A stretch of 64,000 nucleotides of DNA from Glaciimonas immobilis (GTDB lineage: Bacteria; Pseudomonadota; Gammaproteobacteria; Burkholderiales; Burkholderiaceae_D). Below the pieces are notes generated by a model, which saw only the letters and a program-made list of their open reading frames with translations, had not been told where the DNA came from and ran no database searches. The stretch covers positions 1-64,000 of the forward strand of contig NZ_JAAOZT010000004.1 of the NCBI RefSeq assembly GCF_011947285.1, in the 5' to 3' direction. Both the position numbers and the translations under genes were made by a program. Shown here piece by piece: positions 6,513 to 18,378 of the stretch (the stretch's first letter is position 1; each line of letters opens with the position of its first letter).

Positions 6513-6878
6513 AAGTTAATTTCCTTTGATTTATATCTTGATTTTATAGGGTGCTACGCCCCAAACGGCAGCGCTATCGCTCACCATTGAGTGACGATGG
6601 TTTATAGTTTACGTTATTTAATAAAATAATCCTGAATCAGCGCGCCAGACGCTTCTGTCTCTGAAAATGGAGAAACCTGAGATTAAGCGTTGGGCGCACT
6701 GAAGGGGATCGCACTGAAGGAGACATTAGTTACATAAAGCGAAAACCGTTATATTGGCGGTAAAAAATTGTATCAATTTGGTTCCCCTACCAAAGCATTT
6801 GCAACTGAAAGTAACTGAACTTGATAAATACACAGCTTCCGCATTATTATTAAGTGCTAAGCAATGATGAGAAACATC
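6513..6878. other. Intergenic region between gpr and the small secreted protein gene
   Basis: About 365 bases holding divergent upstream regions. A direct repeat of CGCACTGAAGG occurs twice near 6695-6723. The rest is AT-rich with no ORF I can support. Promoters for both flanking genes must lie here, but none stands out. Confidence 0.45.
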
Positions 6879-7250
6879 ATGAAAAAATTTGTTTTATTAT
6901 TAATAACTGCGATGACTATGCTAGCCGCTAGCAGCGCTAGTTATGCGTGGGGGCGTGGCGGATATTATGGACATGGAGGATTTTATGGTCCCAGTGTTGG
7001 TATCAGCATAGGTGATCCTTATTATTACGGTCCGCCGCCGGTATATTACGCCCCACCGCCGGTGTATTATGCACCGCAGCCAGTCTATATTGAACCTGAA
7101 CAACAAACATACATTGAGCGTAACGACACCGTTGCTGCTGGCCCGGATATAAAATATTACTGCTCCAATCCTGTTGGCTACTATCCTCAGATAGCGCGCT
7201 GCCCTAAAGGTTGGTTAAAAGTAGTCCCGGACAATTCTCCTCCAAGATGA
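6879..7250 (+). CDS. Small secreted Gly/Tyr/Pro-rich protein
   Basis: A 123-residue protein with a clear signal peptide (MKKFVLLLITAMTMLAASSA, cleavage likely after SYA). The mature part opens with Gly- and Tyr-rich WGRGGYYGHGGFYG, continues with repeated PPPVYYAP units, and ends with a Cys-containing segment (YYCSNPVGYYPQIARCPKGW). That last pattern, two Cys around YYPxxxxCPxGW, recurs in small envelope proteins of betaproteobacteria (from memory of the family, not searched). Function unknown; periplasmic or surface location is inferred. ATG codons at 6864 and 6867 are alternative starts, but the one at 6879 gives the typical MKK start. It is 16 bases upstream of the lipoprotein gene, so the two are probably co-transcribed. 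Confidence 0.75.
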   Translation: MKKFVLLLITAMTMLAASSASYAWGRGGYYGHGGFYGPSVGISIGDPYYYGPPPVYYAPPPVYYAPQPVYIEPEQQTYIERNDTVAAGPDIKYYCSNPVGYYPQIARCPKGWLKVVPDNSPPR

Positions 7251-7266
7251 TAAAGGTGGTGCGATC

Positions 7267-7827
7267 GTGAACAAACCATTTTTAAATATGCCTAAAAAAA
7301 TCCTCGCTGCAGCGGTAGTTCTGGTGCTAGGTGGTTGTGTTGGCGTGCCAACAGGGCCGAATGTCATGGCGATGCCGGGCACAGGCAAAAGTTACGAGCA
7401 GTTCCAGAACGATGATTACGCTTGTCATCGCTTTGCACAGGATCGGGTAGGCCCGAACGCGGGACAAGCAACCGCAGATAGCGCAACTGGCACCGCGGTG
7501 GCTGGCACGCTGATTGGCGCAACCGTTGGGGCATTGATCGGTGCGGCAAGTGGCAACGCTGGCGCTGGTGCGGCCATCGGTGGAGGTGGCGGGTTGCTGG
7601 TAGGCAGTTCTGCAGCCAGCAACAATGCAGACCGAAGCGGCGCTGGCATCCAACGCCAATATAACAACGTCTACATCCAATGTATGTACGCGAAGGGTAA
7701 CCGGGTTCCGGTGCCAGCAGGCTACGATGACAATCGACGCTCTCGCTATGCACCTGCACCGCCACCTGACTATTACGCGCCGCGCCAACGCAGCTACGAT
7801 ACGCCGCCGGATTACGTGCCTTATTAA
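7267..7827 (+). CDS. Glycine-zipper lipoprotein
   Basis: A 186-residue predicted outer-membrane lipoprotein. The N-terminus has a positively charged start, a hydrophobic stretch and the lipobox LVLGGC. A central glycine-zipper segment (LIGATVGALIGAASGNAGAG, continuing Gly-rich) occupies about residues 80-115, and two Cys residues (YACHRF, YIQCMY) flank it. The tail is Pro/Tyr-rich. The family is common in proteobacterial envelopes without a defined role; zipper segments favour membrane insertion or oligomerisation. A GTG start at 7267 is supported by AAAGGTGGTG just upstream; an ATG at 7288 is possible but lacks a ribosome-binding site. Likely operon with the preceding gene, and followed by a strong terminator. 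Confidence 0.8.
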   Translation: MNKPFLNMPKKILAAAVVLVLGGCVGVPTGPNVMAMPGTGKSYEQFQNDDYACHRFAQDRVGPNAGQATADSATGTAVAGTLIGATVGALIGAASGNAGAGAAIGGGGGLLVGSSAASNNADRSGAGIQRQYNNVYIQCMYAKGNRVPVPAGYDDNRRSRYAPAPPPDYYAPRQRSYDTPPDYVPY

Positions 7828-7845
7828 CTCCCTAAATTACGATTG

Positions 7846-7882
7846 AAAAAGCCTGCTTCTTTATTTGAAGTGGGCTTTTTTT
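7846..7882 (+). terminator. Rho-independent terminator after the lipoprotein gene
   Basis: A 12-pair stem (AAAGCCTGCTTC with GAAGTGGGCTTT, two wobble pairs) around a 7-base loop, ending in a run of T at 7876-7882. It lies about 20 bases after the stop at 7827. Confidence 0.9.
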
Positions 7883-7960
7883 GGACCTAAAATAAGGCGC
7901 TGTTGTGCCAACCTATTTTAGCACCGGAACAACCACATCAAATAAAGCACCATATGACGC

Positions 7961-7990
7961 TATAATTGATGCATTAATTAGGAGGTAATC
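7961..7990 (+). promoter_or_regulatory. vapBC promoter, palindromic operator and ribosome-binding site
   Basis: A consensus -10 (TATAAT) lies at 7961-7966. It overlaps a near-perfect 18-base palindrome, TAATTGATGCATTAATTA (7963-7980, 16 of 18 positions symmetric), followed at once by AGGAGGT (7980-7986) and the vapB ATG at 7991. The layout fits repression by the VapBC complex, as known for the family. No good -35 is visible. Confidence 0.6.
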
Positions 7991-8182
7991 ATGCGAACAA
8001 CAGTTAATTTAGATGAAGAATTGCTTGCAAGAGCGCAAGCAATTACGGGTGAAACGGAGCGAGGCGAACTCTTGCATGAGGCACTTCGTGCGCTAATTGA
8101 GCGCGAAGCTGCCCGTCGACTGTCTCGATTATCGGGAAGCATGCCTGGCGCACAAGATATTCCACGTCGGCGCGGTGAGTGA
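7991..8182 (+). CDS. vapB: VapB-type antitoxin
   Basis: A 63-residue antitoxin. The N-terminal MRTTVNLDEELLARAQAITG is the ribbon-helix-helix DNA-binding segment typical of the VapB / DUF2191 family. The C-terminal half, charged and helical, would wrap the toxin. A near-consensus AGGAGGT four bases before the ATG implies strong translation. One base separates its stop from the ATG of vapC, the usual coupling for toxin-antitoxin pairs in which the antitoxin is made in excess. Confidence 0.88.
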   Translation: MRTTVNLDEELLARAQAITGETERGELLHEALRALIEREAARRLSRLSGSMPGAQDIPRRRGE

Positions 8183-8183
8183 C

Positions 8184-8549
8184 ATGATCCTGGTTGACAC
8201 ATCGATTTGGATTGACCTTTTGCGCGGCTCTGGGCCATTGGGCGAAATGTTAAACAGGAACGAAGTTCAAACGCACCCGTTTGTGATTGGAGAACTGGCC
8301 TGTGGCAATTTGCCTGATCGGTCAACTACGCTCCAGCTATTGCGGGAATTGCCGTCAGTGCGCATTGCTGCGAATAGCGAAGTTCTATTTTTCATAGAAA
8401 AACATCACTTGATGGCGCGCGGGGTCGGCTATATTGACATGCATTTACTTGCGTCAGCAGCGCTAGACGCATGCAAACTGTTCACCCGCGACAAGCGCTT
8501 ACACAGCATCGCTGATGAGCTGGCACTGGCGCATTATCAGGAACATTAG
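8184..8549 (+). CDS. vapC: VapC-type PIN-domain ribonuclease toxin
   Basis: A 121-residue PIN-domain protein. The acidic active-site residues are all visible: Asp in MILVDTSIWID, Glu in VIGELACGN, Asp in GYIDMHLLASA and Asp in LFTRDKRL. VapC toxins cleave tRNA or rRNA when not bound by VapB. The reading frame is intact, so the pair is probably functional. I choose ATG 8184 (MILVDTS, the usual family start); a GTG at 8175 overlapping vapB is an alternative. The frame is open upstream inside vapB, but that is overlap only. Confidence 0.9.
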   Translation: MILVDTSIWIDLLRGSGPLGEMLNRNEVQTHPFVIGELACGNLPDRSTTLQLLRELPSVRIAANSEVLFFIEKHHLMARGVGYIDMHLLASAALDACKLFTRDKRLHSIADELALAHYQEH

Positions 8550-8608
8550 ACAGGTTAGAAATTATGATTCGCAAATTCTCCACTGGAACACTTAGACGAA
8601 ATCGCTGG

Positions 8609-9487
8609 TCAAACCTGAGCAACACCGCCGGTGGCCATCTCTGCGTTAAAACCGAATGAAGTCGGCTGACGTTGACATAATATGTCTTTCATTCGCATCC
8701 GAATAGCAGGCATTACTGCAGGGTCGGTTAAAATATAAAATTGCTCAATTGCAATGGCATCAAATAGAGCATCGGCTACTTCTGCAGCCAATACGCCATT
8801 CTCCACTGCTTTAGAAATGCACTCTTCTGCTTTTGCAACAATCGCGTCAGATGCTGCTGTGCGCGGCGCATCACCTGGTGGGCGATTACGCTCCGCTTGA
8901 TCGATCCTTGTCTTTACCCATAAAGGGCATAGCACAGACACCTTGATTTTTGCATCGCGCAAAGTCAGATCGTGATGCAGGCCTTCAGATACAGTGATAA
9001 CTGCGTGTTTACTCGCATTGTAAGCAGCCACGCAAGACTGAGAAGTCAGACCCGCCGTTGAAGCGGTATTGATGATATATCCCTCTTCATCATTCTTTAA
9101 CATCGTAGGAATAAACGCACGCAAACTATTAGTGACGCCATACAGATTGACGCCCATTACCCATGCCCAATCTTCAGGTGTCGTTTCCCACACTGGTTTT
9201 ATGATGGACACGCCAGCATTGTTGACTAGCAAATGGACATTTCTACATTGTTCAAATACTTGTGCGGCCAATGCATCTACTTGCTCTGCCTTTGAAACAT
9301 CTGCGCATACACCAATAACCTCAATATTTTGTACTTTAAACTCTGCCACCGCAGCCTCTAATTTGATCGCATCAATATCGACCAATACCAGTTTCATACC
9401 TTCAGCTGCCGCACGCATGGCAATGGCCCTGCCGATTCCTTCAGCGGCCCCGGTGATGACAGCAACCTTATCCCTGAAAATCTTCAT
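8609..9487 (-). CDS. Short-chain dehydrogenase/reductase (second of a tandem pair)
   Basis: A 292-residue classical SDR. TGAAEGIG near residue 11 is the cofactor loop, VNNAG near 88 the structural motif, and YNASK near 160 the catalytic Tyr-Lys. The first strand is followed by LVLVDID, an acidic residue that favours NAD(H). Its closest visible relative is the neighbouring SDR at 9558-10460, sharing long segments such as VSVLCPLWVKT and QAERNRP, so the two arose by tandem duplication. The substrate is unknown; similar proteins act on steroid, fatty or hydroxyketone compounds. ATG at 9487 is chosen because GAGGG is five bases upstream. It is the last gene of a minus-strand group with the sensor kinase and thioesterase. 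Confidence 0.82.
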   Translation of the reverse strand: MKIFRDKVAVITGAAEGIGRAIAMRAAAEGMKLVLVDIDAIKLEAAVAEFKVQNIEVIGVCADVSKAEQVDALAAQVFEQCRNVHLLVNNAGVSIIKPVWETTPEDWAWVMGVNLYGVTNSLRAFIPTMLKNDEEGYIINTASTAGLTSQSCVAAYNASKHAVITVSEGLHHDLTLRDAKIKVSVLCPLWVKTRIDQAERNRPPGDAPRTAASDAIVAKAEECISKAVENGVLAAEVADALFDAIAIEQFYILTDPAVMPAIRMRMKDILCQRQPTSFGFNAEMATGGVAQV

Positions 9488-9557
9488 AAATACCCTCATC
9501 TATACATCGTTTTACTACACTTTTTTGACTGCTAGCTGCACTACAAACTACTTCCCT

Positions 9558-10460
9558 TTATGCGTTGATTTTTTGTATGCCATCTTTCCAGATAGGGGAA
9601 AAAGTTGGCGCGCGTTGATGCAATATATCTTCCATGCGCGTCCGAATCTTAGGGATTTCATCAGGATCAGTCAGAATATAAAAGCAATCCGTTTGAATAG
9701 CATCAAACACAGCATCAGCAATCCGATCTGCCGTAATACCCTTCCTGACGCCACTAAAAATCGCTTTACCGGTCTTAGCAACAACCGGATCGAATACGCC
9801 CGTATTAAATGCGTCGGTATTAAGTGCTTTTAGATCTAGCGCGCTATCAGATGGCCGATTACGTTCTGCTTGCGTTATTTTCGTCTTCACCCATAAGGGA
9901 CATAACACCGACACTTTGATTTTGGCGCCGCTTAAAGCAAGGTCGTGATGCAACCCTTCAGATACTGTTACCACTGCATGCTTACTAGCATTGTAAGCAG
10001 CCATGCTTGGCTGAGACTGTAAACCGGCCATTGAAGAAGTATTGATAATGTGACCTTCCTCTCCATTTTTTAACATCGCAGGAATAAACGCACGTAAGCA
10101 ATTGGTAACGCCATAAAGATTGACCCCCATCACCCAATCCCAGTCTTGTGGCGTGGTTTTCCAAACCGGCTTTACAATCGCAACACCGGCATTGTTGACA
10201 AGTAAATGGACATTTCCAAACCGGGAAAAAACCTGTGCCGCCAATGCCTCGACTTGCTCCGCTTTAGAGACATCGGTACACACGCCGATAACATCTGCGT
10301 CGCGTGCCTTAAACTCTGCTACGACAGCGTCAAGTTTTAATGGATTTATACTGGCCAACACTAACTTCATACCTTCGTCCGCAGCACGTATCGCAATCGC
10401 TTTGCCGATACCATCAGATGCCCCGGTTATGACAGCAACCTTACCCACTAAATTTTCCAT
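9558..10460 (-). CDS. Short-chain dehydrogenase/reductase (first of a tandem pair)
   Basis: A 300-residue classical SDR with TGASDGIG, VNNAG and YNASK motifs at the expected places. The cofactor-selecting position reads LVLASIN rather than LVLVDID in the paralogue, so the two may differ in NAD(P) preference (inference). An extra segment after NRP (SDSALDLKALNTDAF) is absent from the other copy. The ATG at 10460 is 17 bases after the kinase stop codon; a TTG at 10484 would overlap the kinase. Short spacing points to co-transcription, with kinase and oxidoreductases made together. The downstream paralogue follows after 70 bases. Confidence 0.82.
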   Translation of the reverse strand: MENLVGKVAVITGASDGIGKAIAIRAADEGMKLVLASINPLKLDAVVAEFKARDADVIGVCTDVSKAEQVEALAAQVFSRFGNVHLLVNNAGVAIVKPVWKTTPQDWDWVMGVNLYGVTNCLRAFIPAMLKNGEEGHIINTSSMAGLQSQPSMAAYNASKHAVVTVSEGLHHDLALSGAKIKVSVLCPLWVKTKITQAERNRPSDSALDLKALNTDAFNTGVFDPVVAKTGKAIFSGVRKGITADRIADAVFDAIQTDCFYILTDPDEIPKIRTRMEDILHQRAPTFSPIWKDGIQKINA

Positions 10461-10477
10461 AAATTCTTTATCACCGC

Positions 10478-12460
10478 TCAGCAATCAATACACCGCACAG
10501 GAATCCGCACGACAAATTGCGTCCCTTTACCGACCTGACTCTCTACCGTAATGCTTGCATTTAACAGGTCAATTATTCTTTTCACGATTGCCAGACCAAG
10601 ACCAGTGCCGTGGGTTTTCTCTTGCGAATCAATCTGCACAAACATATCAAAGATGTGCGGTAAATATTTTTCTGGGATGCCCACTCCTGTATCTCCGACA
10701 GAAATAATCAATAGAGAATGCTTACCGGTACCATCAGAACTTAAGGTCGTTTCAATGTCCCCATTAATCTCCACTCCCCCACTCTGGGTGCATCTGATAG
10801 CGTTAGATACAAGGTTAGTTAAAATTTGTCGTATGCGGTCATAGTCACTCGTCAGCTCCGTATCTGGTCCCAAATTTTTCAGGTTAAGCACAATTTTTTT
10901 GTCCTTCGCCATAGAGGAAAAATCATCCAGGATTCCTTCCAATAAATGGCGCAATGTGAACGTACTTTCCCGAATTGAAAGTATTCCCGCTTCAAGGCGC
11001 GAGAACTCTCCAATATCCCGCATCTGTGCGGTGATTCTTTGTGAGGCACGCGTAATTTTATCTACCGTTTTTTCCATAGGTGAAGACTTTGCCATCACCG
11101 ATAACACTTCAATTGCGCCCGTCAAAGATTGAAGAGGACTTCTCAACTCATGGTTCACGGCTGAAATAAACATTGTCTTCTGTTTTGCAGCATTTTTCTC
11201 CAGCGCAACAGTGGCTTGCAACTGCTTCACAAGTTGATGGGACATGTCGGCTTTTTCTTTTTCAATTAATCGCAGACGCGTTGCCAAAGCCAGAGCAAAA
11301 ATGATCGACTCCCATACAGACGCAAACTGAATCGCGTAAGTTGTCAAAAAATTTGACGACAGTAGTTCCAGTGTTTTTAACGCTTGTAAAACCAGTCCTG
11401 CACCGAACACCATCCAACCAACACTATAAAGATAGGCAGGTTTATAACCTTGGTAACTACGTATCCCACCACCAATAATCAAAAATGGAATGACCAATAA
11501 AATCAGATAGTTGATAGCATAAAATAAATACCTGATAGGAAATATGAAGCACAAAAACAAACCAGCCAGTAGCACCCATTGGAAGAAAACCAAATAGCTA
11601 TCCAACCACCGAATCGTTTTTTTCAGACTCAGGAAATGTCGTGAAAACAAAATCATTCCATGTACTGCGGCGTATGCACAGGCAGCAAAAAAGCTCTCGT
11701 AATATGCATTGATTTGAACAAATAAAGGCGCAAGCCCATAGATGTAAAAAAAAGTTCCTATAAAGCCACCTAAATAGTATAAATAATAAAAATAGGTGCG
11801 ATCACGGAGATAGAAAAACAGAAAAAAGTTGTAAATCCACATCACCAGTAAACCGCCAAAGAACAAGCCTAATCCTATGTGCGTATCACCGATGTACTCC
11901 ACAATGCCCTTGGTGCCAGCCCATGACAGATCAATATTTAATGCATGCCCATCAGGCGCAAATCTTACATAGTAGGTCGTTGGATGTGTGGGAGGCGCAG
12001 GGATTTTAAAAAGATAATTGTGTATATTGAATAAACGCTTTCCCGGAGGAGCATCTTCAATTAATGTAGTGGAGAGAAATCTCGCGTCCGTACCCGGATA
12101 GAAAACAGTCAGGCTGCCAACATGCTCATAATTTTGCATCAAAAACCAATTTAGGCCGTTATAAGCACTAAGATCAGCAGAAAATCGAATCCAAAAGGCT
12201 TTCTTTTTATACGTAAAACTGTAGTTTTGATTTTTTAGCGTTTGAAATACGCCTGCTTGGCCGCTTGACACTTGATCGATTGTATAACTTCCATCCGCAT
12301 CCTCCAAGTACGCCATCTGAACCACCAAAGGTTGTTCCGCCTCACCTAGCGGGACAAAAACACGCGGGATTTCCTTGGAGAAGACCAGATTGGAAAATAA
12401 AACAAATAATAATCCTAAGCACCAAACAACAACTGATCTGACTTCCATTTTTCTATTCAT
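10478..12460 (-). CDS. 7TMR-DISM sensor histidine kinase
   Basis: A 660-residue membrane kinase. A signal peptide (residues 1 to about 27) leads to a periplasmic beta domain of the 7TMR-DISM extracellular type (to about 185), which in relatives binds small carbohydrate-like or other ligands. Seven hydrophobic helices follow (about 190-395), rich in aromatic residues such as WIYNFFLFFYLRDRTYFYY. Then come a coiled linker and the HisKA domain with phospho-acceptor His437 in VNHELRSPLQS. The catalytic ATPase domain ends with GTGLGLAIVKRI near 615-627. There is no receiver domain, so a separate regulator is needed. I prefer ATG 12460 (GGA eight bases upstream) over GTG 12475. It lies 51 bases after the thioesterase gene. 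The regulator at 13432-14250 is the nearest candidate partner. Confidence 0.85.
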   Translation of the reverse strand: MNRKMEVRSVVVWCLGLLFVLFSNLVFSKEIPRVFVPLGEAEQPLVVQMAYLEDADGSYTIDQVSSGQAGVFQTLKNQNYSFTYKKKAFWIRFSADLSAYNGLNWFLMQNYEHVGSLTVFYPGTDARFLSTTLIEDAPPGKRLFNIHNYLFKIPAPPTHPTTYYVRFAPDGHALNIDLSWAGTKGIVEYIGDTHIGLGLFFGGLLVMWIYNFFLFFYLRDRTYFYYLYYLGGFIGTFFYIYGLAPLFVQINAYYESFFAACAYAAVHGMILFSRHFLSLKKTIRWLDSYLVFFQWVLLAGLFLCFIFPIRYLFYAINYLILLVIPFLIIGGGIRSYQGYKPAYLYSVGWMVFGAGLVLQALKTLELLSSNFLTTYAIQFASVWESIIFALALATRLRLIEKEKADMSHQLVKQLQATVALEKNAAKQKTMFISAVNHELRSPLQSLTGAIEVLSVMAKSSPMEKTVDKITRASQRITAQMRDIGEFSRLEAGILSIRESTFTLRHLLEGILDDFSSMAKDKKIVLNLKNLGPDTELTSDYDRIRQILTNLVSNAIRCTQSGGVEINGDIETTLSSDGTGKHSLLIISVGDTGVGIPEKYLPHIFDMFVQIDSQEKTHGTGLGLAIVKRIIDLLNASITVESQVGKGTQFVVRIPVRCIDC

Positions 12461-12511
12461 TAAAATTTTCCACACAAAAATAATGAATATAAATGTCCAT
12501 GAATTATGAAA

Positions 12512-12946
12512 TTAAACCCTATTTTTTTGTATGGGATAATCAGTCAGAAGTGCTGCAAATATTTCTGGCATGACCGGTTTGTTTTCGGCGTTAACTGTTG
12601 TGCAAATATTTATTGCGGTTACCATCAGCGTTCTTTCAGGTAAGCGATAAATTTTTTGTTCAAACTGAAGGCGTAATTTTGTAATTCTTTTAATTACAGT
12701 TTCGACAATAAATTCATCACCACGCATCAATGAATTTTGGCAGTCAACGTCAACACGAAGTACAAAAAAGCCTAATTTTTGCTTTTTAAGTTCTTGAAAT
12801 GGAAAATCCAATTCTGTTAATACATGGTGACGCGCTTCATCCATGTAATTCAGATACACAGCATGGACAACCCCTCCACTACTATCGCATTCATATTGAC
12901 GTACTCTGAACTCCGTTGAGAACACTTTTTGTTGTTTTATATTCAT
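12512..12946 (-). CDS. YbgC/4HBT-like acyl-CoA thioesterase
   Basis: A 144-residue hot-dog fold thioesterase. The N-terminal pattern FRVRQYECDSSGGVVHAVYL, followed by NYMDEARHH, matches the 4-hydroxybenzoyl-CoA thioesterase/YbgC signature. The usual Asp of D(T/S)-x-G-V-V is retained as CDSSGGVV. Such enzymes hydrolyse acyl-CoA or acyl-ACP thioesters in the cytoplasm. As first gene of a group with a sensor kinase and two SDRs, it could release an acyl chain used by them (inference only). No strong ribosome-binding site precedes the ATG at 12946. A TATAAT on the minus strand about 30 bases further up could serve as -10, but the -35 is weak. Confidence 0.82.
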   Translation of the reverse strand: MNIKQQKVFSTEFRVRQYECDSSGGVVHAVYLNYMDEARHHVLTELDFPFQELKKQKLGFFVLRVDVDCQNSLMRGDEFIVETVIKRITKLRLQFEQKIYRLPERTLMVTAINICTTVNAENKPVMPEIFAALLTDYPIQKNRV

Positions 12947-13431
12947 TTACTTATCATCATTTAACATGCAAATTATATTCAATTTATATTCATATACACT
13001 ACGAATATATGCATTTAAACCGCGTTAGTCAAGTACAGTGAATTTCACTCTACAGATGATCCCGTGGTGAGGCGAGTAAGCGGTATGAATGGCGCAACCC
13101 ATAATGGTGGTGTTTTTGCTTGTAACTATAACGAGTGCGGACGAAATCAGCGGCTAGAATCGGACGCTAGAAAAGGTCGCTGACCGGGCAAATCAGTGGA
13201 GGATTTCGATTGGACAAACGAGTTTGGAGAACGAAATGCATGTCGATATCGAACTCAAAATCAGTAGCAAACCAGATCGTCCCTGCGGTGCAACGACTGA
13301 TGAAGAAAGTTGAGTCTGCGAAATGGCGGCTGTGGCGTGATCGCACACAAGGTGCGATCAAACGGCTGCGCGAGGTTTTATTGAAAAGTGAATGAAGCCA
13401 TAACGCTGAGCGCGTACCGACTGTAATGCCA
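12947..13431. other. Gene-poor region between the thioesterase and response regulator genes
   Basis: About 485 bases. The part next to the thioesterase is AT-rich and likely carries its promoter. The remainder contains a short possible transposase relic, listed separately, and is otherwise featureless. Confidence 0.45.
13240..13395 (+). pseudogene. Possible remnant of an ISKra4-like transposase
   Basis: A short open stretch ending at 13395 encodes VQRLMKKVESAKWRLWRDRT followed by AIKRLREVL. The pattern of a helix, then (A/L)KWxLW, then a basic helix recalls the central part of ISKra4-family transposases, where (L)KWNLWHG is common. This is from memory and is weak. No terminal inverted repeats, catalytic residues or neighbouring transposase fragments are visible, so if the match is real it is a decayed fragment. 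It could equally be a non-coding stretch. Confidence 0.2.
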
Positions 13432-14250
13432 TTATGAAGCGGAGGAGGGAAAACGGAAAAGCTGTTTATGAAAGGATTTTGCAAGTAGTTCCAGTACAGC
13501 GGGTTTTTCGAGCACAGTCACATCGAAACGTTCCACCATTTTTGCTATTTCAGATTGATTGACCTCAGTTGTTCTAAGCTCCCCGGTAAGAATAGTAATG
13601 GGGGCGTTAGACTGGAGTTTTTCTCTAATGTATACAATGGCTGATTCGGCTGTTTCGAGCCGTGATAGCATCCAGTCCAAAACATATCCCTCAAATGGCT
13701 GGCTTTTGGCCGCCTCCAGCATGGATTGAATACTCTGAAATTGCGCTACGTCTACCCCTTGCCATGCAAACATGGTGGCGATAGTGTCGGTAATATCTGG
13801 ATTATCGTCTAGCGCCGCAACGCGAGGGTTCGGCAGTACGTCAATCTTTAAAATTTTGTAGCAAACCTGCCCTTCTTCGACTTTGGTACCTGGTATCACG
13901 AGCCAACCATCAGCCTCTCTCACGGCAACTAAATTCTCAAATTTCGGCGTTTCCAGTGCGTTACTGTGCTGAATTAAGCATCGCTGTGGGACATCACTAA
14001 TTTTAAGAATCGCATTCCATGCGTTCGCGGGTTCGTTCGTAATGAACACAGATAAAGGCTCATTGAAGTGCGCTGCAATGAGCTTGAGTTGCTCCGGGGT
14101 CCATGAACGCTTGCCTGAAAACTTTTGCTGAATCGATACATATTCCAGTTCGAGAATTCCAGCAATAACCGTCATTTGTTGACGAGGCCGTACGCCGTTT
14201 CTGGTGAGAATTTTTTGGATTTGAGCGGTCTCATTGGCATTAGTCATCAT
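13432..14250 (-). CDS. Response regulator with N-terminal BetR/HTH-like domain and C-terminal receiver
   Basis: A 272-residue protein with unusual domain order. Residues 1 to about 75 look like a BetR/HTH DNA-binding domain (IQKILTRNGVRPRQQMTVIA, then QQKFSGKRSWTPEQLKLIA). A middle stretch of about 60 residues has no clear family. Residues 143-265 are a receiver: acidic pair Asp148/Asp149 (ALDDNPD), phospho-acceptor Asp192 (VLDWML), Thr in ITILTGE and Lys in VLEKPAV. Most regulators place the receiver first. It is the closest regulator to the orphan 7TMR-DISM kinase 970 bases downstream on the same strand. The ATG pair at 14250/14247 lacks a ribosome-binding site and follows a TATAAT by six bases, so a leaderless mRNA is possible. 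TTG 14265 is unlikely. Confidence 0.72.
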   Translation of the reverse strand: MMTNANETAQIQKILTRNGVRPRQQMTVIAGILELEYVSIQQKFSGKRSWTPEQLKLIAAHFNEPLSVFITNEPANAWNAILKISDVPQRCLIQHSNALETPKFENLVAVREADGWLVIPGTKVEEGQVCYKILKIDVLPNPRVAALDDNPDITDTIATMFAWQGVDVAQFQSIQSMLEAAKSQPFEGYVLDWMLSRLETAESAIVYIREKLQSNAPITILTGELRTTEVNQSEIAKMVERFDVTVLEKPAVLELLAKSFHKQLFRFPSSAS

Positions 14251-14552
14251 CAATACATTATACAACTAGCATGTGGTGGTCTTAACAATGGATTGCTGCT
14301 GTTCTTTCACAGTGCAATAAAAGTGTTCAGCGCCATTCATTGAGTTGTCTAATTTACAAAATTAACTGATTCTTTTATCAACGTGAGTGACTGTTTGAGA
14401 AATAACGTGAATACCACTTGATATATGAATAGATTATTAATACAATTTGAAGTGTTTTTGAATATATATAATTCATTAAATATTTATCATAAAGATCAAA
14501 GTCTTTTTTGATAACTCAGGGCAGCAACGCTCAAATCCTGGCATGTGCAGTT
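14251..14552. other. AT-rich intergenic region
   Basis: About 300 bases of markedly AT-rich sequence between the response regulator gene and the orphan ORF. It contains the regulator's presumed promoter: minus-strand TATAAT at about 14256-14261, with TTAAGA 17 bases upstream. Nothing else is recognised. Confidence 0.5.
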
Positions 14553-14825
14553 ATGACAAAAGACGGAATACACTATATGAACGAATACGATATTAAGAAA
14601 GAAGTGAACGCATATAAAATTAAAGAAATTCTACGGAATAATTTTTACAAAATATCAAATAATGCTACTGAAGAAATTTATTCGGGGGATTATATATGCA
14701 AAAATATAGATATTTTTAATCATCTCTCCGTATCTGATATTTGTAAAATAGCCTATATAACTGGATTTAATAAAGGGAGAAGAATTTCAATTGAAATAAA
14801 TCAATTATTAGATGGTTTAAAATAA
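14553..14825 (+). CDS. Hypothetical protein, AT-rich orphan ORF
   Basis: About 90 residues (MTKDGIHYMNEYDIKKEV...), rich in Lys, Ile, Asn and Tyr. No transmembrane segment or known motif is visible. The codon use is far more AT-rich than the surrounding housekeeping genes, which suggests recent transfer or a chance ORF in AT-rich DNA. The start is uncertain: TTG 14508, ATG 14553 and ATG 14577 share the frame and none has a good ribosome-binding site. The protein composition is not low-complexity, which argues for a real gene. It is followed by a tandem copy of ATATGAGAGAAATA near 14825-14855. Confidence 0.4.
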   Translation: MTKDGIHYMNEYDIKKEVNAYKIKEILRNNFYKISNNATEEIYSGDYICKNIDIFNHLSVSDICKIAYITGFNKGRRISIEINQLLDGLK

Positions 14826-14950
14826 TATGAGAGAAATAATATGAGAGAAATAATATGAGAGCGGCCTCCTGAAATAAAGCTGTGAAAGCTCTTCTTATCT
14901 ACGTTTTAAATTCAAAGATATAAATACCAAATAATCGTCATGAAAAAAAA

Positions 14951-16144
14951 TTGCCTATAGAAGTGAATAAAAATAACACATTAATTATTACTATTATTTG
15001 TATCGCACTGGTTGCTTTAAACCTCCGGCCTAGCATGGCTTCTTTCGGACCACTGCTGACGCAGATCACTAGTTCTATTGATATCACTTATACACAAATC
15101 TCTTTGCTGACAATGCTGCCTGTTATTGCCATAGGCATTGGAATGTTTTTTGCTGGAAAAATTAAGTCGATGATCGGTTTGGTTCCCGGGGTGTTCATCT
15201 CATTGGCCCTGATAGGGCTAGCAACAGGCGCCAGGTATTTTTACTTTGATGTTACTGGTCTGATTGTGACCGCTATCATTTCAGGACTGGGAATTGCCAT
15301 TATCCAAGCCCTTATGCCCGCTTTTATTAAGAGTAATTTTACAAATACGTCGCTGTTGATGGGGTTTTATGCAACGGCTATTATGGGCGGCGCTACTATT
15401 TCAGCCTCTATGTCTCCATGGCTGGCAAACAAATTAAATAGTTGGCAGCTATCTTTAGCAGCTTAGGCTATTTTTGCAATAGTTGGATTATTTTCCTGGA
15501 GAAAGATTAGTCTCGTTACCAAGAATTCTGTGGATCAACCGACGAATGTAAACATAAAGCGGGATAATTTTTTTACGAACAGAAGGGCCTGGCTATTAGC
15601 GTTATTCTTTGGCTTTGGCACTGCCTCTTACACTTGTGTCCTGGCGTGGCTAGCACCTTTTTATCTGGACCTTGGTTTTACGGATCAAGAAGCTGGGATG
15701 ATGTTGGCATTGTTAACGCTTTTCGAGGTCATCGCTGGATTGACCATTCCCATGTTATCCGCAAAAAAACTTGATCGAAGATGGTATTTATTGCTGCTTC
15801 TTTCGTTCATCTTTACAGGTTTTATTGGTCTTGCCTTCTTCCCTCTTAAATTATTATTTCTTTGGCCTGCTTTGCTAGGGATTGGAATAGGCGGTCTTTT
15901 TCCTATGAGTCTGATCGTATCGATGGATCACATTCAACATCCGCAACGAAGCGGCAACCTGACAGCTTTTACGCAAGGTATTGGCTACATCATCGCAGGT
16001 CTTTCCCCGCTGTTCGCTGGCTTTATTCGTAGCGCAACGAATAGTTTTCAGTATTCATGGTTATTATTAGCCCTCATTATGATTGTTATGATACCTATGG
16101 CTCTTACCTTCAATCCTATTAGATATAGTGAAAAATTTGACTGA
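14951..16144 (+). pseudogene. CynX/NimT-type MFS transporter, disrupted by an amber codon
   Basis: The frame from 14951 to 16144 encodes one 12-helix transporter (for example LNLRPSMASFGPLL at the start and WLLALFFGFGTASYTCVLAW in the second half), resembling cyanate/2-nitroimidazole permeases. It is interrupted by TAG at 15464-15466. Both halves are in the same frame, and the residues on either side read SLAA-stop-AIFAIVG. In this family a Trp is common there, so one G-to-A change of TGG would explain it. The second half from 15530 could be translated from its own start but would lack six helices. The start is also abnormal: ATG 14940 is followed by A8 and falls out of frame, whereas nine A would join it to the transporter frame. 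I regard the gene as inactive. No downstream gene is clearly linked. Confidence 0.8.
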
Positions 16145-16196
16145 GGGGAGGCAGAGGTATGCAATTTTGGACAGCACTGCGTCAACATAAAAGCCT

Positions 16197-16233
16197 GGCC
16201 ACTCCCGGTCAGCATCTGCGGAACATCAACCGT
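16197..16233 (+). repeat. Dispersed repeat B, copy 1
   Basis: A 37-base segment starting GGCCACTCCCGGTCAGCATC matches 63164-63200 at 31 of 37 positions; all six differences are transitions. It lies directly after the broken transporter gene. No coding sense is apparent. Confidence 0.6.
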
Positions 16234-16264
16234 CAATTAACGATGAACCTCAACTAAAACCAAC

Positions 16265-17650
16265 CTACCCATTTCCCGGCAACCTCAAAACCACCTCCAA
16301 CCCACCCTCTGGATGATTCCTCAAGGTTAACACCGCCCGATGGTTCTCCGCGATATTCCGTGCGATGGTCAAGCCCAAACCCGTGCCGCCCGTGTCGCGA
16401 GAGCGTGAGGTTTCCAACCTAAAAAATGGCTCGAATACTGCCGTCAGTTGATCCTCAGGGATCCCGGCACCGCCATCGCGCACGGTAATAACAATAGAAC
16501 TATGCTCGCCGGCACCTTCGCGGACAATTTGCAAACGTGCGTAGCGGCCATATTTAACCGCGTTGTCGACCAGATTGGTCAGGCAACGGCGTAATGCGTT
16601 AGGTTGGGCCATTATCGACGCCCGTGTCTGACCTTTTAACACCACATCCTGCCCGGCATCCGCCGCATCGGCACAAACACTATCCAGCAACGAATCAATG
16701 TCCAGCAACTGCATCGCCTCCGCTGAATCCATGCTACGCGCTAAATCAAGACCTTCTCGTACCATACTCTGCATGACTGCTAAATCCTCAATCAGCTTAT
16801 GGCGCAAATCAAGATCACTCACCTTTTCAAAGCGCAATCGTAATCGCGTCAATGGCGTTTGCAAATCGTGCGTGATCGCCGCCAGCATATGGGTGCGATG
16901 TTGAATCTGGCGCTTGATACGGGCCTGCATTGCATTGAAGGCGCTGGCTGCCTGACGAATTTCTGTCGGACCCGACTCCACCAAAGGCGGTCGGTCAATG
17001 TCGCGACCGAGCGCCGATGCCGCCTCTGCCAAGCGCTTGATCGGACGCGCTGTCATTTTTGCGACCAGATAGGCAAGCATCGCAATTAAGCCTAAAAATA
17101 AAGCAAAGTAAGGTGACAGCGTCGGCATACCGAGTGGACGCCCGCGCAGACCGCCAGGATCCCGCATCACCCGCAACTTCAACTTAAGTAGTGCGCCGTC
17201 TTTCAGACTGACATACACCACTTCACATTCATCAATCCGCGGTCGGTTACGCTGGCTTTGATTGTAGGGGCCGGGTGGCCTGTCAGGGTGCCAATTGCAG
17301 CCGACCTGTTTGGATACAACAATCTGCCGCTGATTACCGAGCCGCGCTCTTAATAGCGCTACCAGAGAAGCGTTCTCTGGCATAACATTTTCAGTGTTTG
17401 GTGCCAGACTTGCTTGCAGCCCAAAATTCTCACTGGTTTCGAGTACAGCTGCACGCATCTCTGGCCGGATACCATCAAGCGAAAGAACAATTTGCTCGAC
17501 CCTCTCGGCAATGCGAAAATCGTACAGTTCCTTGAATGCATTGCGGCGTTCGTTATCCGCTAACCAACTTGTGGTGCCAGCAGCAACCAGTACGCCAGCG
17601 AGCAGAATCAGAAACACCCGATTAGCGACGGAATCAAAGAAATTTTTCAC
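16265..17650 (-). CDS. Sensor histidine kinase of an OmpR/EnvZ-class two-component system
   Basis: A 461-residue kinase. A transmembrane helix at about residues 10-30 is followed by a periplasmic sensor of about 150 residues containing two Cys (VGCNWHP and IDECEVV), then a second helix (about 182-202). Next are HAMP (MTARPIKRLAEAA), HisKA with phospho-acceptor His261 (AAITHDLQTPLTRL) and the ATPase domain (NLVDNAVKYG, then GTGLGLTIARNI). The gene overlaps the regulator stop by four bases, so the two are translationally coupled. The shared location with a Spy/CpxP-like gene and an MdtABC-type pump suggests the role of BaeS or CpxA, sensing envelope stress or metals. That role is inferred from neighbours, not from the sensor sequence. 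Confidence 0.9.
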   Translation of the reverse strand: MKNFFDSVANRVFLILLAGVLVAAGTTSWLADNERRNAFKELYDFRIAERVEQIVLSLDGIRPEMRAAVLETSENFGLQASLAPNTENVMPENASLVALLRARLGNQRQIVVSKQVGCNWHPDRPPGPYNQSQRNRPRIDECEVVYVSLKDGALLKLKLRVMRDPGGLRGRPLGMPTLSPYFALFLGLIAMLAYLVAKMTARPIKRLAEAASALGRDIDRPPLVESGPTEIRQAASAFNAMQARIKRQIQHRTHMLAAITHDLQTPLTRLRLRFEKVSDLDLRHKLIEDLAVMQSMVREGLDLARSMDSAEAMQLLDIDSLLDSVCADAADAGQDVVLKGQTRASIMAQPNALRRCLTNLVDNAVKYGRYARLQIVREGAGEHSSIVITVRDGGAGIPEDQLTAVFEPFFRLETSRSRDTGGTGLGLTIARNIAENHRAVLTLRNHPEGGLEVVLRLPGNG

Positions 17651-18378
17651 GCATCTACCGATACCGACGTCGCCAATACATAGCCTTCGTTACGTACCGT
17701 TTTGATGATGCCAGGCGTACGCGCATCGTCGCCGAGTTTTTGACGCAACCGGCTAATTTGAATATCCACTGAACGATCGAAGGGATCGGCCTCGCGGCCT
17801 TGCGTCAGTTCGAGTAACTGATCGCGGTTTAAAATGCGATTCGGATGATCCAGAAAGACCTTGAGTATCCGGTATTCTGCACCCGATAACGCGACAACAA
17901 CGCCTTCCCGATTGACCAGCTGCCGAGCGATAAGATCGAGCGTCATGCCAGCAAACTGTATTTGTTGTGCTTTCGGTGTTGCCATATTTGGCGGTAACGC
18001 CTGAGTGCGGCGTAACACGCTGCGAATCCGGGCAAATAGCTCGCGTGGTTCAAATGGTTTGGATAAATAATCGTCTGCGCCCATCTCCAGACCAAGAATC
18101 CGATCCAGCGGCTCGCCGCGGGCGGTCAGCATGATAACGGGAATGCCGAAATGCGTCGGATGGGCACGCAAGGTCCGGCACAGCGTCAGTCCGTCCTCGC
18201 CCGGCAGCGTCAGATCAAGCACGATCAGATCCACGCGCGCCTCTTCTAGCACCCGCCGCATTTCAGCGCCGTTGTTAGCCGTTAACGTGCGTAAACCATT
18301 GGCGTCAAGGTATTCGGCCAACAAAGTACGAATTTCACGGTCGTCATCGACAACCAATATATGTGCAGTAGTATCCAT
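17647..18378 (-). CDS. OmpR-family response regulator
   Basis: A 243-residue DNA-binding regulator. The receiver has acidic residues Asp11-Asp13, phospho-acceptor Asp55 (IVLDLTLPGED), Thr in VIMLTARGE and Lys in DDYLSKPFEP. The winged-helix output domain occupies about residues 140-235 (LSGAEYRILKVFLDH, LLELTQGR, VDIQISRLRQKLGDD, GIIKTVRNEGYVLA). The first gene of a two-gene operon with the kinase; it is transcribed divergently from the Spy-like gene. Candidate binding sequences in the 220-base shared upstream region include ATCCAGA-AGGCC-TCTGGAT and several TACAA(A/T) repeats. Confidence 0.92.
   Translation of the reverse strand: MDTTAHILVVDDDREIRTLLAEYLDANGLRTLTANNGAEMRRVLEEARVDLIVLDLTLPGEDGLTLCRTLRAHPTHFGIPVIMLTARGEPLDRILGLEMGADDYLSKPFEPRELFARIRSVLRRTQALPPNMATPKAQQIQFAGMTLDLIARQLVNREGVVVALSGAEYRILKVFLDHPNRILNRDQLLELTQGREADPFDRSVDIQISRLRQKLGDDARTPGIIKTVRNEGYVLATSVSVDA

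Follow-up and report, generated by a model that had tools for sequence, protein, structure and literature searches.

What is a membrane sensor kinase doing beside an acyl-CoA thioesterase, two oxidoreductases and a response regulator whose domains run in inverted order? The question is raised by five genes between positions 8,609 and 14,250 of a 64,000-nucleotide stretch of Glaciimonas immobilis DNA (contig NZ_JAAOZT010000004.1, positions 1 to 64,000; the whole stretch is called the window below), for which an earlier note, made from the sequence alone, had proposed a candidate undescribed signalling module whose enzymes could make or modify the ligand that the kinase senses. We favour a different answer, to which we give a probability of roughly 0.55: the genes form a two-component module of the Air type that descends from a plasmid or other mobile element; an acyl-CoA thioesterase and a 7TMR-DISM kinase take the places of the accessory protein AirM and the kinase AirS, and the module's ancestral output was probably conjugation. 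This answer builds on the observed gene content, intact motifs, a genomic insertion, recurrence on plasmid-type replicons and the ancestry of the regulator in a plasmid-borne group.

All five open reading frames (ORFs) are open and lie at the positions and on the strand first given for them (Table 1), and the reported gaps of 51, 17 and 70 bases between the thioesterase, the kinase and the two short-chain dehydrogenase/reductase (SDR) genes are right with starts at 12460, 10460 and 9487. The kinase has 7TMR-DISMED2 (PF07696), 7TMR-DISM_7TM (PF07695), HisKA (PF00512) and HATPase_c (PF02518) domains over cut-off, thus combining the DISMED, membrane and output parts of the 7TMR-DISM class, and its profile matches in the PDB are 2xbz (RetS), 3jyb and 9jpe. 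The thioesterase (Pfam 4HBT_2, 6.2e-12; NCBIfam TIGR00051, 70.9 bits, cut-off 68.7) lacks a signal peptide by eye and is apparently cytosolic; its D21 and H28, which we take to correspond to the active-site residues of YbgC, one of its PDB relatives, are invariant in the three module thioesterases described below. SDR1 and SDR2 reach 334.2 and 314.6 bits with the PRK06194 model NF004843 (cut-off 308) and share 70% amino acid identity and 76% DNA identity over 300 nt, which marks them as tandem duplicates. In the regulator, the predicted order of an N-terminal helix-turn-helix and a C-terminal receiver was borne out, with BetR well over its cut-off (2.8e-15, 57.1 bits, cut-off 21.6) and Response_reg just below (1.1e-5, 26.0 bits, cut-off 30.2), and an alignment of 18 relatives shows that the receiver keeps the acidic pair, the phospho-acceptor D192, T222 and K249. 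Alignments likewise indicate that kinase, thioesterase and regulator all retain catalytic or phosphorylation residues. The inverted order itself, taken before as undescribed, is of the same type as that of AirR of Chromobacterium, as described in PMC7240160.

The module lies on inserted DNA. Comparison with four other genomes of the genus delimits an insertion of about 8.4 kb (about 7.88–16.26 kb), the same site measuring about 206–573 bp in those genomes; alignments to the three closer relatives end at 7825–7882 on the left and resume at 16257–16276 on the right. The GC content of the insertion is 0.423, that of the flanks 0.52 and 0.507, and besides the module it holds a VapBC-like pair at its left edge and a broken major facilitator superfamily (MFS) gene at its right edge. 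Positions 13158–13300 and 13297–13377 match insertion-sequence regions, with 81–82% identity at two places in another genome (G096:C2) and 91% in the window's own genome (G000:C9). The one G096:C2 place inspected lies just before an IS6-like transposase ORF and the G000:C9 match lies inside a transposase-like ORF, both named by eye without a family scan. Because of these matches, mobile DNA must have acted between regulator and thioesterase, and because this debris fills part of the 485-bp gap, the regulator and the thioesterase, kinase and SDR genes are probably separate transcription units. The regulator had been placed just upstream on the same strand; the strand holds, and that position does not by itself mean one operon.

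A native operon of the genus or order was considered and rejected. None of the four other genus genomes carries the insertion at this site; in 195 family genomes the highest-scoring match outside the window's own genome reached 152 bits at 28% identity, and of 300 order genomes only the window's own had the kinase (profile A1, E <= 1e-60), so that the joint conservation across Burkholderiales suggested as a check did not appear. Profile A1 also found the kinase in 1 of 349 genomes of the family of G1075, a genome to which we return below (769.6 bits), whereas profile A4 at the same threshold gave 40 others in 398 phylum genomes with a best score of 279.5 bits; these are more distant 7TMR-DISM kinases. 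Two others among 274 class genomes match at E <= 1e-42 with 25–26% identity, and a scan of the genome collection returned five distant kinase-domain relatives (24–30%) and nothing closer. The family, order, phylum and class searches scored the top 3–6 first-look candidates per genome and may have missed copies. The module is mobile; the genus does not share it as an operon, nor does the order as far as its genomes were sampled.

The combination recurs on other replicons. On plasmid p2 of Robbsia andropogonis BLB1, a thioesterase (44% identity), a kinase (38%) and a regulator (42%) are adjacent, flanked by ParAB on one side and a VirB-type secretion operon on the other; past the regulator come a lytic transglycosylase gene at about 1 kb and VirB3 at about 2 kb. 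The plasmid-like contig G1075:C90, found with a profile of two kinases, carries a thioesterase (30%), a kinase (42%) and a convergent regulator (42%). It also encodes a replication initiator (Pfam RPA), a cupin, a porin, a dehydratase-like protein and, judged by eye, ParA-like and ParB-like ORFs; near its regulator, in place of clear tra or type IV secretion system (T4SS) genes, there are only an ORF that by eye resembles a lytic transglycosylase and a secretin-like protein scoring below its cut-off. A PRK06194 SDR (399 bits) stands within about 2.5 kb of the G1075 thioesterase, which is unlikely by chance given that PRK06194 is uncommon: 60 genomes of the G1075 family yielded 25 matches, in 23 of them. 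The fourth kinase relative (44%) is found on an IMG/VR prophage-like contig (L113) that also encodes an integrase and the P2-type tail proteins GpU and GPD, and where positions 6625–10277 hold a BetR-receiver regulator, a lipocalin-like protein and a hybrid 7TMR-DISM kinase in a row; the lipocalin-like protein, also without a signal peptide by eye, stands in the thioesterase's place. Of the proposed five-gene module, therefore, the thioesterase–kinase–regulator part recurs on two other replicons and the PRK06194 SDR on one of them (G1075, not Robbsia). A model built from the three module thioesterases, which match it by construction, matched nothing up to 1.5 kb away from the kinase at 50 further loci, and no thioesterase was found in viral contigs. 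Phage records contained kinase matches in 24 cases and no BetR-receiver match; one of the 24 extends over most of the length, that in the unannotated record of Pseudomonas phage Y3 (OQ572405.1, 4053–6344), with 27% identity to the hybrid 7TMR-DISM kinase over 97% of its length.

Regulator trees place the window among plasmids. In a first, plasmid-rich tree of 20 rows, the regulators of the window, Robbsia and G1075 grouped together with support of 88/86, and a group of seven with 99/95. A second tree of 52 rows, which added 30 genome rows (29 from one genus) and five plasmid rows, raised the trio to 98/90, joined a Paraburkholderia megapolitana plasmid to it (99/90) and placed the window in a group of ten (100/99) that further comprises Enterobacter, Serratia fonticola, Arsenophonus, Pantoea agglomerans and two proteins of one Pantoea ananatis plasmid. 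Eight replicons, seven plasmids and the G1075 contig, account for the other nine members, and none of the 30 added genome rows falls in the group; tra/T4SS genes lie nearby on six of these replicons, those of Robbsia, Enterobacter, Serratia, Arsenophonus and the two Pantoea. Neither tree includes the short regulator of L100; the long-branched L099 and an unannotated Caballeronia regulator appear in the first only. The 52-row tree, rooted like the first at its midpoint, warns of long branches meeting, including where the F-type plasmid group connects to the other rows. As far as sequence can tell, the larger tree strengthens plasmid ancestry, not function. A quick tree of 16 kinases, for which six of 18 comparison kinases were left out owing to stops in the stored stretch (probably read on the non-coding strand), joined window, Robbsia and G1075 (91 by the SH-like approximate likelihood ratio test) and these with the prophage-contig kinase (100). 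Kinase and regulator trees thus agree for the trio, as expected if both travel together.

Conjugation as the ancestral output is suggested by the company that this regulator family keeps. A BetR-receiver match occurs in 466 PLSDB records, which the database classes as conjugative in 384 cases and as mobilizable in 52; for comparison, among the matches listed, the conjugative share was 2247/5000 for the kinase and 1637/5000 for SDR1. Sixteen annotated BetR-receiver plasmid regions, drawn from best and spread lists rather than at random and including some backbones that are near copies (E. coli, Edwardsiella), had tra/T4SS genes in 13, a kinase in 15 and an AirM-like OxMoco gene (annotation or BLAST) in 12; in the remaining regions the accessory place is taken by the thioesterase (Robbsia) or, in two, by another gene not counted as OxMoco, and the Serratia fonticola region has neither kinase nor OxMoco. 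Such cassettes of kinase and OxMoco (and GNAT) occur on plasmids of Enterobacterales, Burkholderiales and Rhizobiaceae, and tra/T4SS genes lie near the regulator family on plasmids of Serratia, Enterobacter, Pantoea, Klebsiella, E. coli, Edwardsiella, Arsenophonus, Janthinobacterium, Pandoraea and Robbsia; the Pandoraea cassette includes a distant SDR (24% to SDR1). F-type plasmids from Serratia (two examples), Pantoea (also two) and Enterobacter have the regulator, or its cassette, between traM and traY or traA, where F has TraJ. In the genome sets the family matched in five of 299 other order genomes (E <= 1e-8), where four of six loci adjoin OxMoco and kinase and two adjoin neither, and in 49 of 58 genomes of G1075's genus, of which the one inspected (G310) has an OxMoco gene and an AirS-like kinase beside the regulator. 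In the window's own family, a genome (G116, locus L014) has a BetR-receiver regulator beside a kinase; this regulator falls outside the plasmid group in the tree. In the open-access literature we found no paper describing BetR-receiver, kinase and OxMoco genes beside plasmid transfer genes, an absence that is weak evidence, no experiment on conjugation control by any BetR-receiver member, and nothing on 7TMR-DISM with a thioesterase or on OxMoco with a conjugative plasmid. If the regulator does control transfer, a little-described family would govern the spread of many conjugative plasmids.

The described counterpart is AirMSR (antibiotic-induced response) of Chromobacterium violaceum/subtsugae. 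According to its description (PMC7240160), mutants of the three-gene cluster were unresponsive to translation inhibitors, and loss of airMS was not complemented by airS alone; AirM is an accessory protein needed for Air signalling, airMS and airR are convergent, and similar systems are reported from other Chromobacterium and Burkholderia. Its authors name an oxidative change or an acyl-CoA/membrane lipid change as candidate signals, the latter because fatty-acid genes arose in the same screen. A report by another group states that the violacein phenotypes were not seen in ATCC 12472 and that siderophore effects were found (PMC11019928). The window shares with AirMSR a regulator of BetR plus receiver, a membrane histidine kinase and a small accessory gene beside the kinase, and Robbsia and G1075, though not the window, also have the accessory–kinase pair convergent with the regulator. 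It differs in that its regulator and kinase lie on the same strand with insertion-sequence debris between them, in a 7TMR-DISM kinase with DISMED2 and without receiver (AirS has no known sensor domain), in a thioesterase without signal peptide at AirM's place, with no OxMoco among the eight insertion proteins scanned for domains, and in its added PRK06194 SDRs and location on mobile DNA. Its regulator likewise belongs to the group (100/99) of the plasmid members from Pantoea, Serratia, Enterobacter, Arsenophonus and Paraburkholderia, whereas those cassettes combine HAMP or hybrid kinases with OxMoco; 7TMR-DISM and DISMED2 were absent from all five OxMoco-linked kinases scanned (four plasmid, one genome). 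With RetS-type kinases the window kinase shares the DISMED2 sensory domain and seven-transmembrane architecture, but it has no receiver, forms a separate clade and is paired with a BetR-receiver regulator and a thioesterase. The regulator type is therefore already known from AirR, and what appears new, judging by gene content, is the thioesterase and 7TMR-DISM kinase in the places of AirM and AirS. An acyl-CoA thioesterase in AirM's place, or a lipocalin on the prophage-like contig, fits the suspicion of acyl-CoA/membrane lipid sensing voiced in PMC7240160, and the window's branch offers a second system for testing what the AirMSR kinase senses.

The pairing of kinase with regulator, conjugation as ancestral output and an acyl state as signal are what we infer from these comparisons. 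The kinase would sense its signal with either the outer DISMED2 domain or the membrane part, and would phosphorylate the BetR-receiver protein, which would then change transcription. The thioesterase would fill AirM's accessory position and, with the two SDRs, most likely tune or report the acyl-CoA/hydroxy-acyl state to which the kinase responds. The module of the plasmid ancestors probably acted on the conjugation operon, and in the present genome it may be stranded or re-used in a chromosomal insertion in which no transfer genes were seen.

Several observations weigh against this account. No transfer genes were seen beside the window module, so that its regulator does not head tra/T4SS genes, and its own draft genome gave no match to VirB4/TrbE, in a search that left out F-type TraC and whose control matched in 1 of 14 genomes; tra genes are also missing near the regulator in P. 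megapolitana and two Rhizobium plasmids. Upstream regions shared 478 motif pairs, compared with 280–426 when crudely shuffled five times; no motif recurred in three or more regions, and the search gave nothing usable. AirM relatives start with signal-peptide-like stretches (by eye) and the thioesterase does not, so the same position need not mean the same role. The sample is small, with three thioesterase-type modules and a kinase clade of four; the G1075 thioesterase is just 29–31% identical to the other two and may not be orthologous, that of Robbsia falls below the TIGR00051 cut-off (62.7 compared with 68.7), and the 31.8 kb annotated Robbsia stretch holds no SDR. On the prophage-like contig the kinase belongs to the window clade and the regulator to another branch, so the pair can part.

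A bolder extension, which we regard as tentative and on balance unlikely, is a pheromone or host-state switch of mobile elements: Air-type pairs on plasmids and prophages would have an interchangeable accessory gene, be it OxMoco, GNAT, a thioesterase with SDR and dehydratase, or a lipocalin, and would turn a metabolic signal, here acyl or fatty-acid-like, into a transfer decision, the window holding a captured chromosomal copy. If the regulator family does control transfer, the accessory gene would reveal the signal to which each plasmid responds. We also consider it unlikely that the module is a catabolic sensor, Air-like in ancestry and turned to a nutrient role, whose kinase detects an external substrate (lipid, steroid or aromatic) and whose regulator induces degrading SDR and thioesterase genes. 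The Azospirillum relative of SDR1 does belong to a gene row that includes an acyl-CoA dehydrogenase and a phosphotransferase, C alpha-dehydrogenases (lignin enzymes) are among the ten best solved relatives, and the porin and cupin lie near the G1075 thioesterase; but the insertion proteins scanned include no intact uptake gene or full degradation pathway, the MFS gene being broken, and in Robbsia thioesterase and kinase travel without an SDR. More doubtful still is a quorum-type module in which SDR and thioesterase make a fatty-acid-like or hydroxyketone-like molecule for the kinase to sense. In CqsA/CqsS and LqsA/LqsS, enzyme genes lie beside a membrane kinase much as here, and possible acyl-chemistry enzymes do recur with the kinase, a thioesterase and two SDRs in the window and a dehydratase-like protein, an SDR and a thioesterase in G1075. 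The analogy, drawn in the earlier note, nevertheless found no footing in the eight insertion proteins scanned (the rest of the genome was not searched), which include no CqsA- or LqsA-type synthase and no crotonase (RpfF)-type match; of the enzymes, Robbsia retains the thioesterase only, and the DISMED2 domain resembles that of RetS, which is not known to be an acyl-autoinducer receptor. That the island is merely decaying, its two-component genes intact by recency and without function in the host, agrees with the insertion-sequence debris (13158–13377), the broken MFS gene and the site empty in four relatives, but sits so poorly with five open module ORFs and retained catalytic or phosphorylation residues that we think it improbable.

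Table 1. Features of the locus and its insertion (window coordinates), and related plasmid loci
Feature	Position or locus	Strand	Basis
BetR-receiver response regulator (AirR type), 272 aa	13432..14250	-	Pfam, alignment of 18 relatives, trees
Gap with insertion-sequence debris, 485 bp, between regulator and thioesterase	12947..13431	.	DNA matches
4HBT/YbgC-FadM-type acyl-CoA thioesterase, 144 aa	12512..12946	-	Pfam, NCBIfam, alignments, PDB relatives
Sensor histidine kinase (DISMED2, 7TMR-DISM, HisKA, HATPase_c; without receiver)	10478..12460, ATG 12460	-	Domains, PDB profile matches, alignments, tree
SDR1, PRK06194 family oxidoreductase	9558..10460	-	NCBIfam NF004843
SDR2, PRK06194 family, tandem copy of SDR1	8609..9499, ATG 9499 or 9487	-	NF004843, identity to SDR1
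Genomic insertion, between two convergently ending genes	7883..16256	.	Comparison with four other genus genomes
VapB-like antitoxin, named by eye	7991-8182	+	Left edge of insertion
PIN-domain VapC-like toxin	ends 8549 (pair 7991..8549)	+	Pfam PIN 1.4e-8, translation
BetR-receiver plasmid loci, most with kinase and OxMoco	L061, L062, L065, L066, L088-L094, L147-L151		

Scans for promoters and terminators in the locus stayed near chance (16 promoters found, 13.3 ± 4.5 expected; 7 terminators found, 5.4 ± 2.8 expected). No tRNA was detected in the window and no Rfam family in 7000–18000, and PADLOC, run on four proteins, returned just two weak kinase-domain matches. At the insertion's right end, the MFS transporter gene is split into two ORFs of 171 and 204 aa (14951–16144) and is probably a pseudogene. 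Between it and the regulator, a 105-aa ORF (14508–14861) shares 80% DNA identity over 246 bp with part of a 176-aa ORF elsewhere in the same genome (G000:C31, L108 6604–7134) and is followed by three exact 14-bp tandem repeats.

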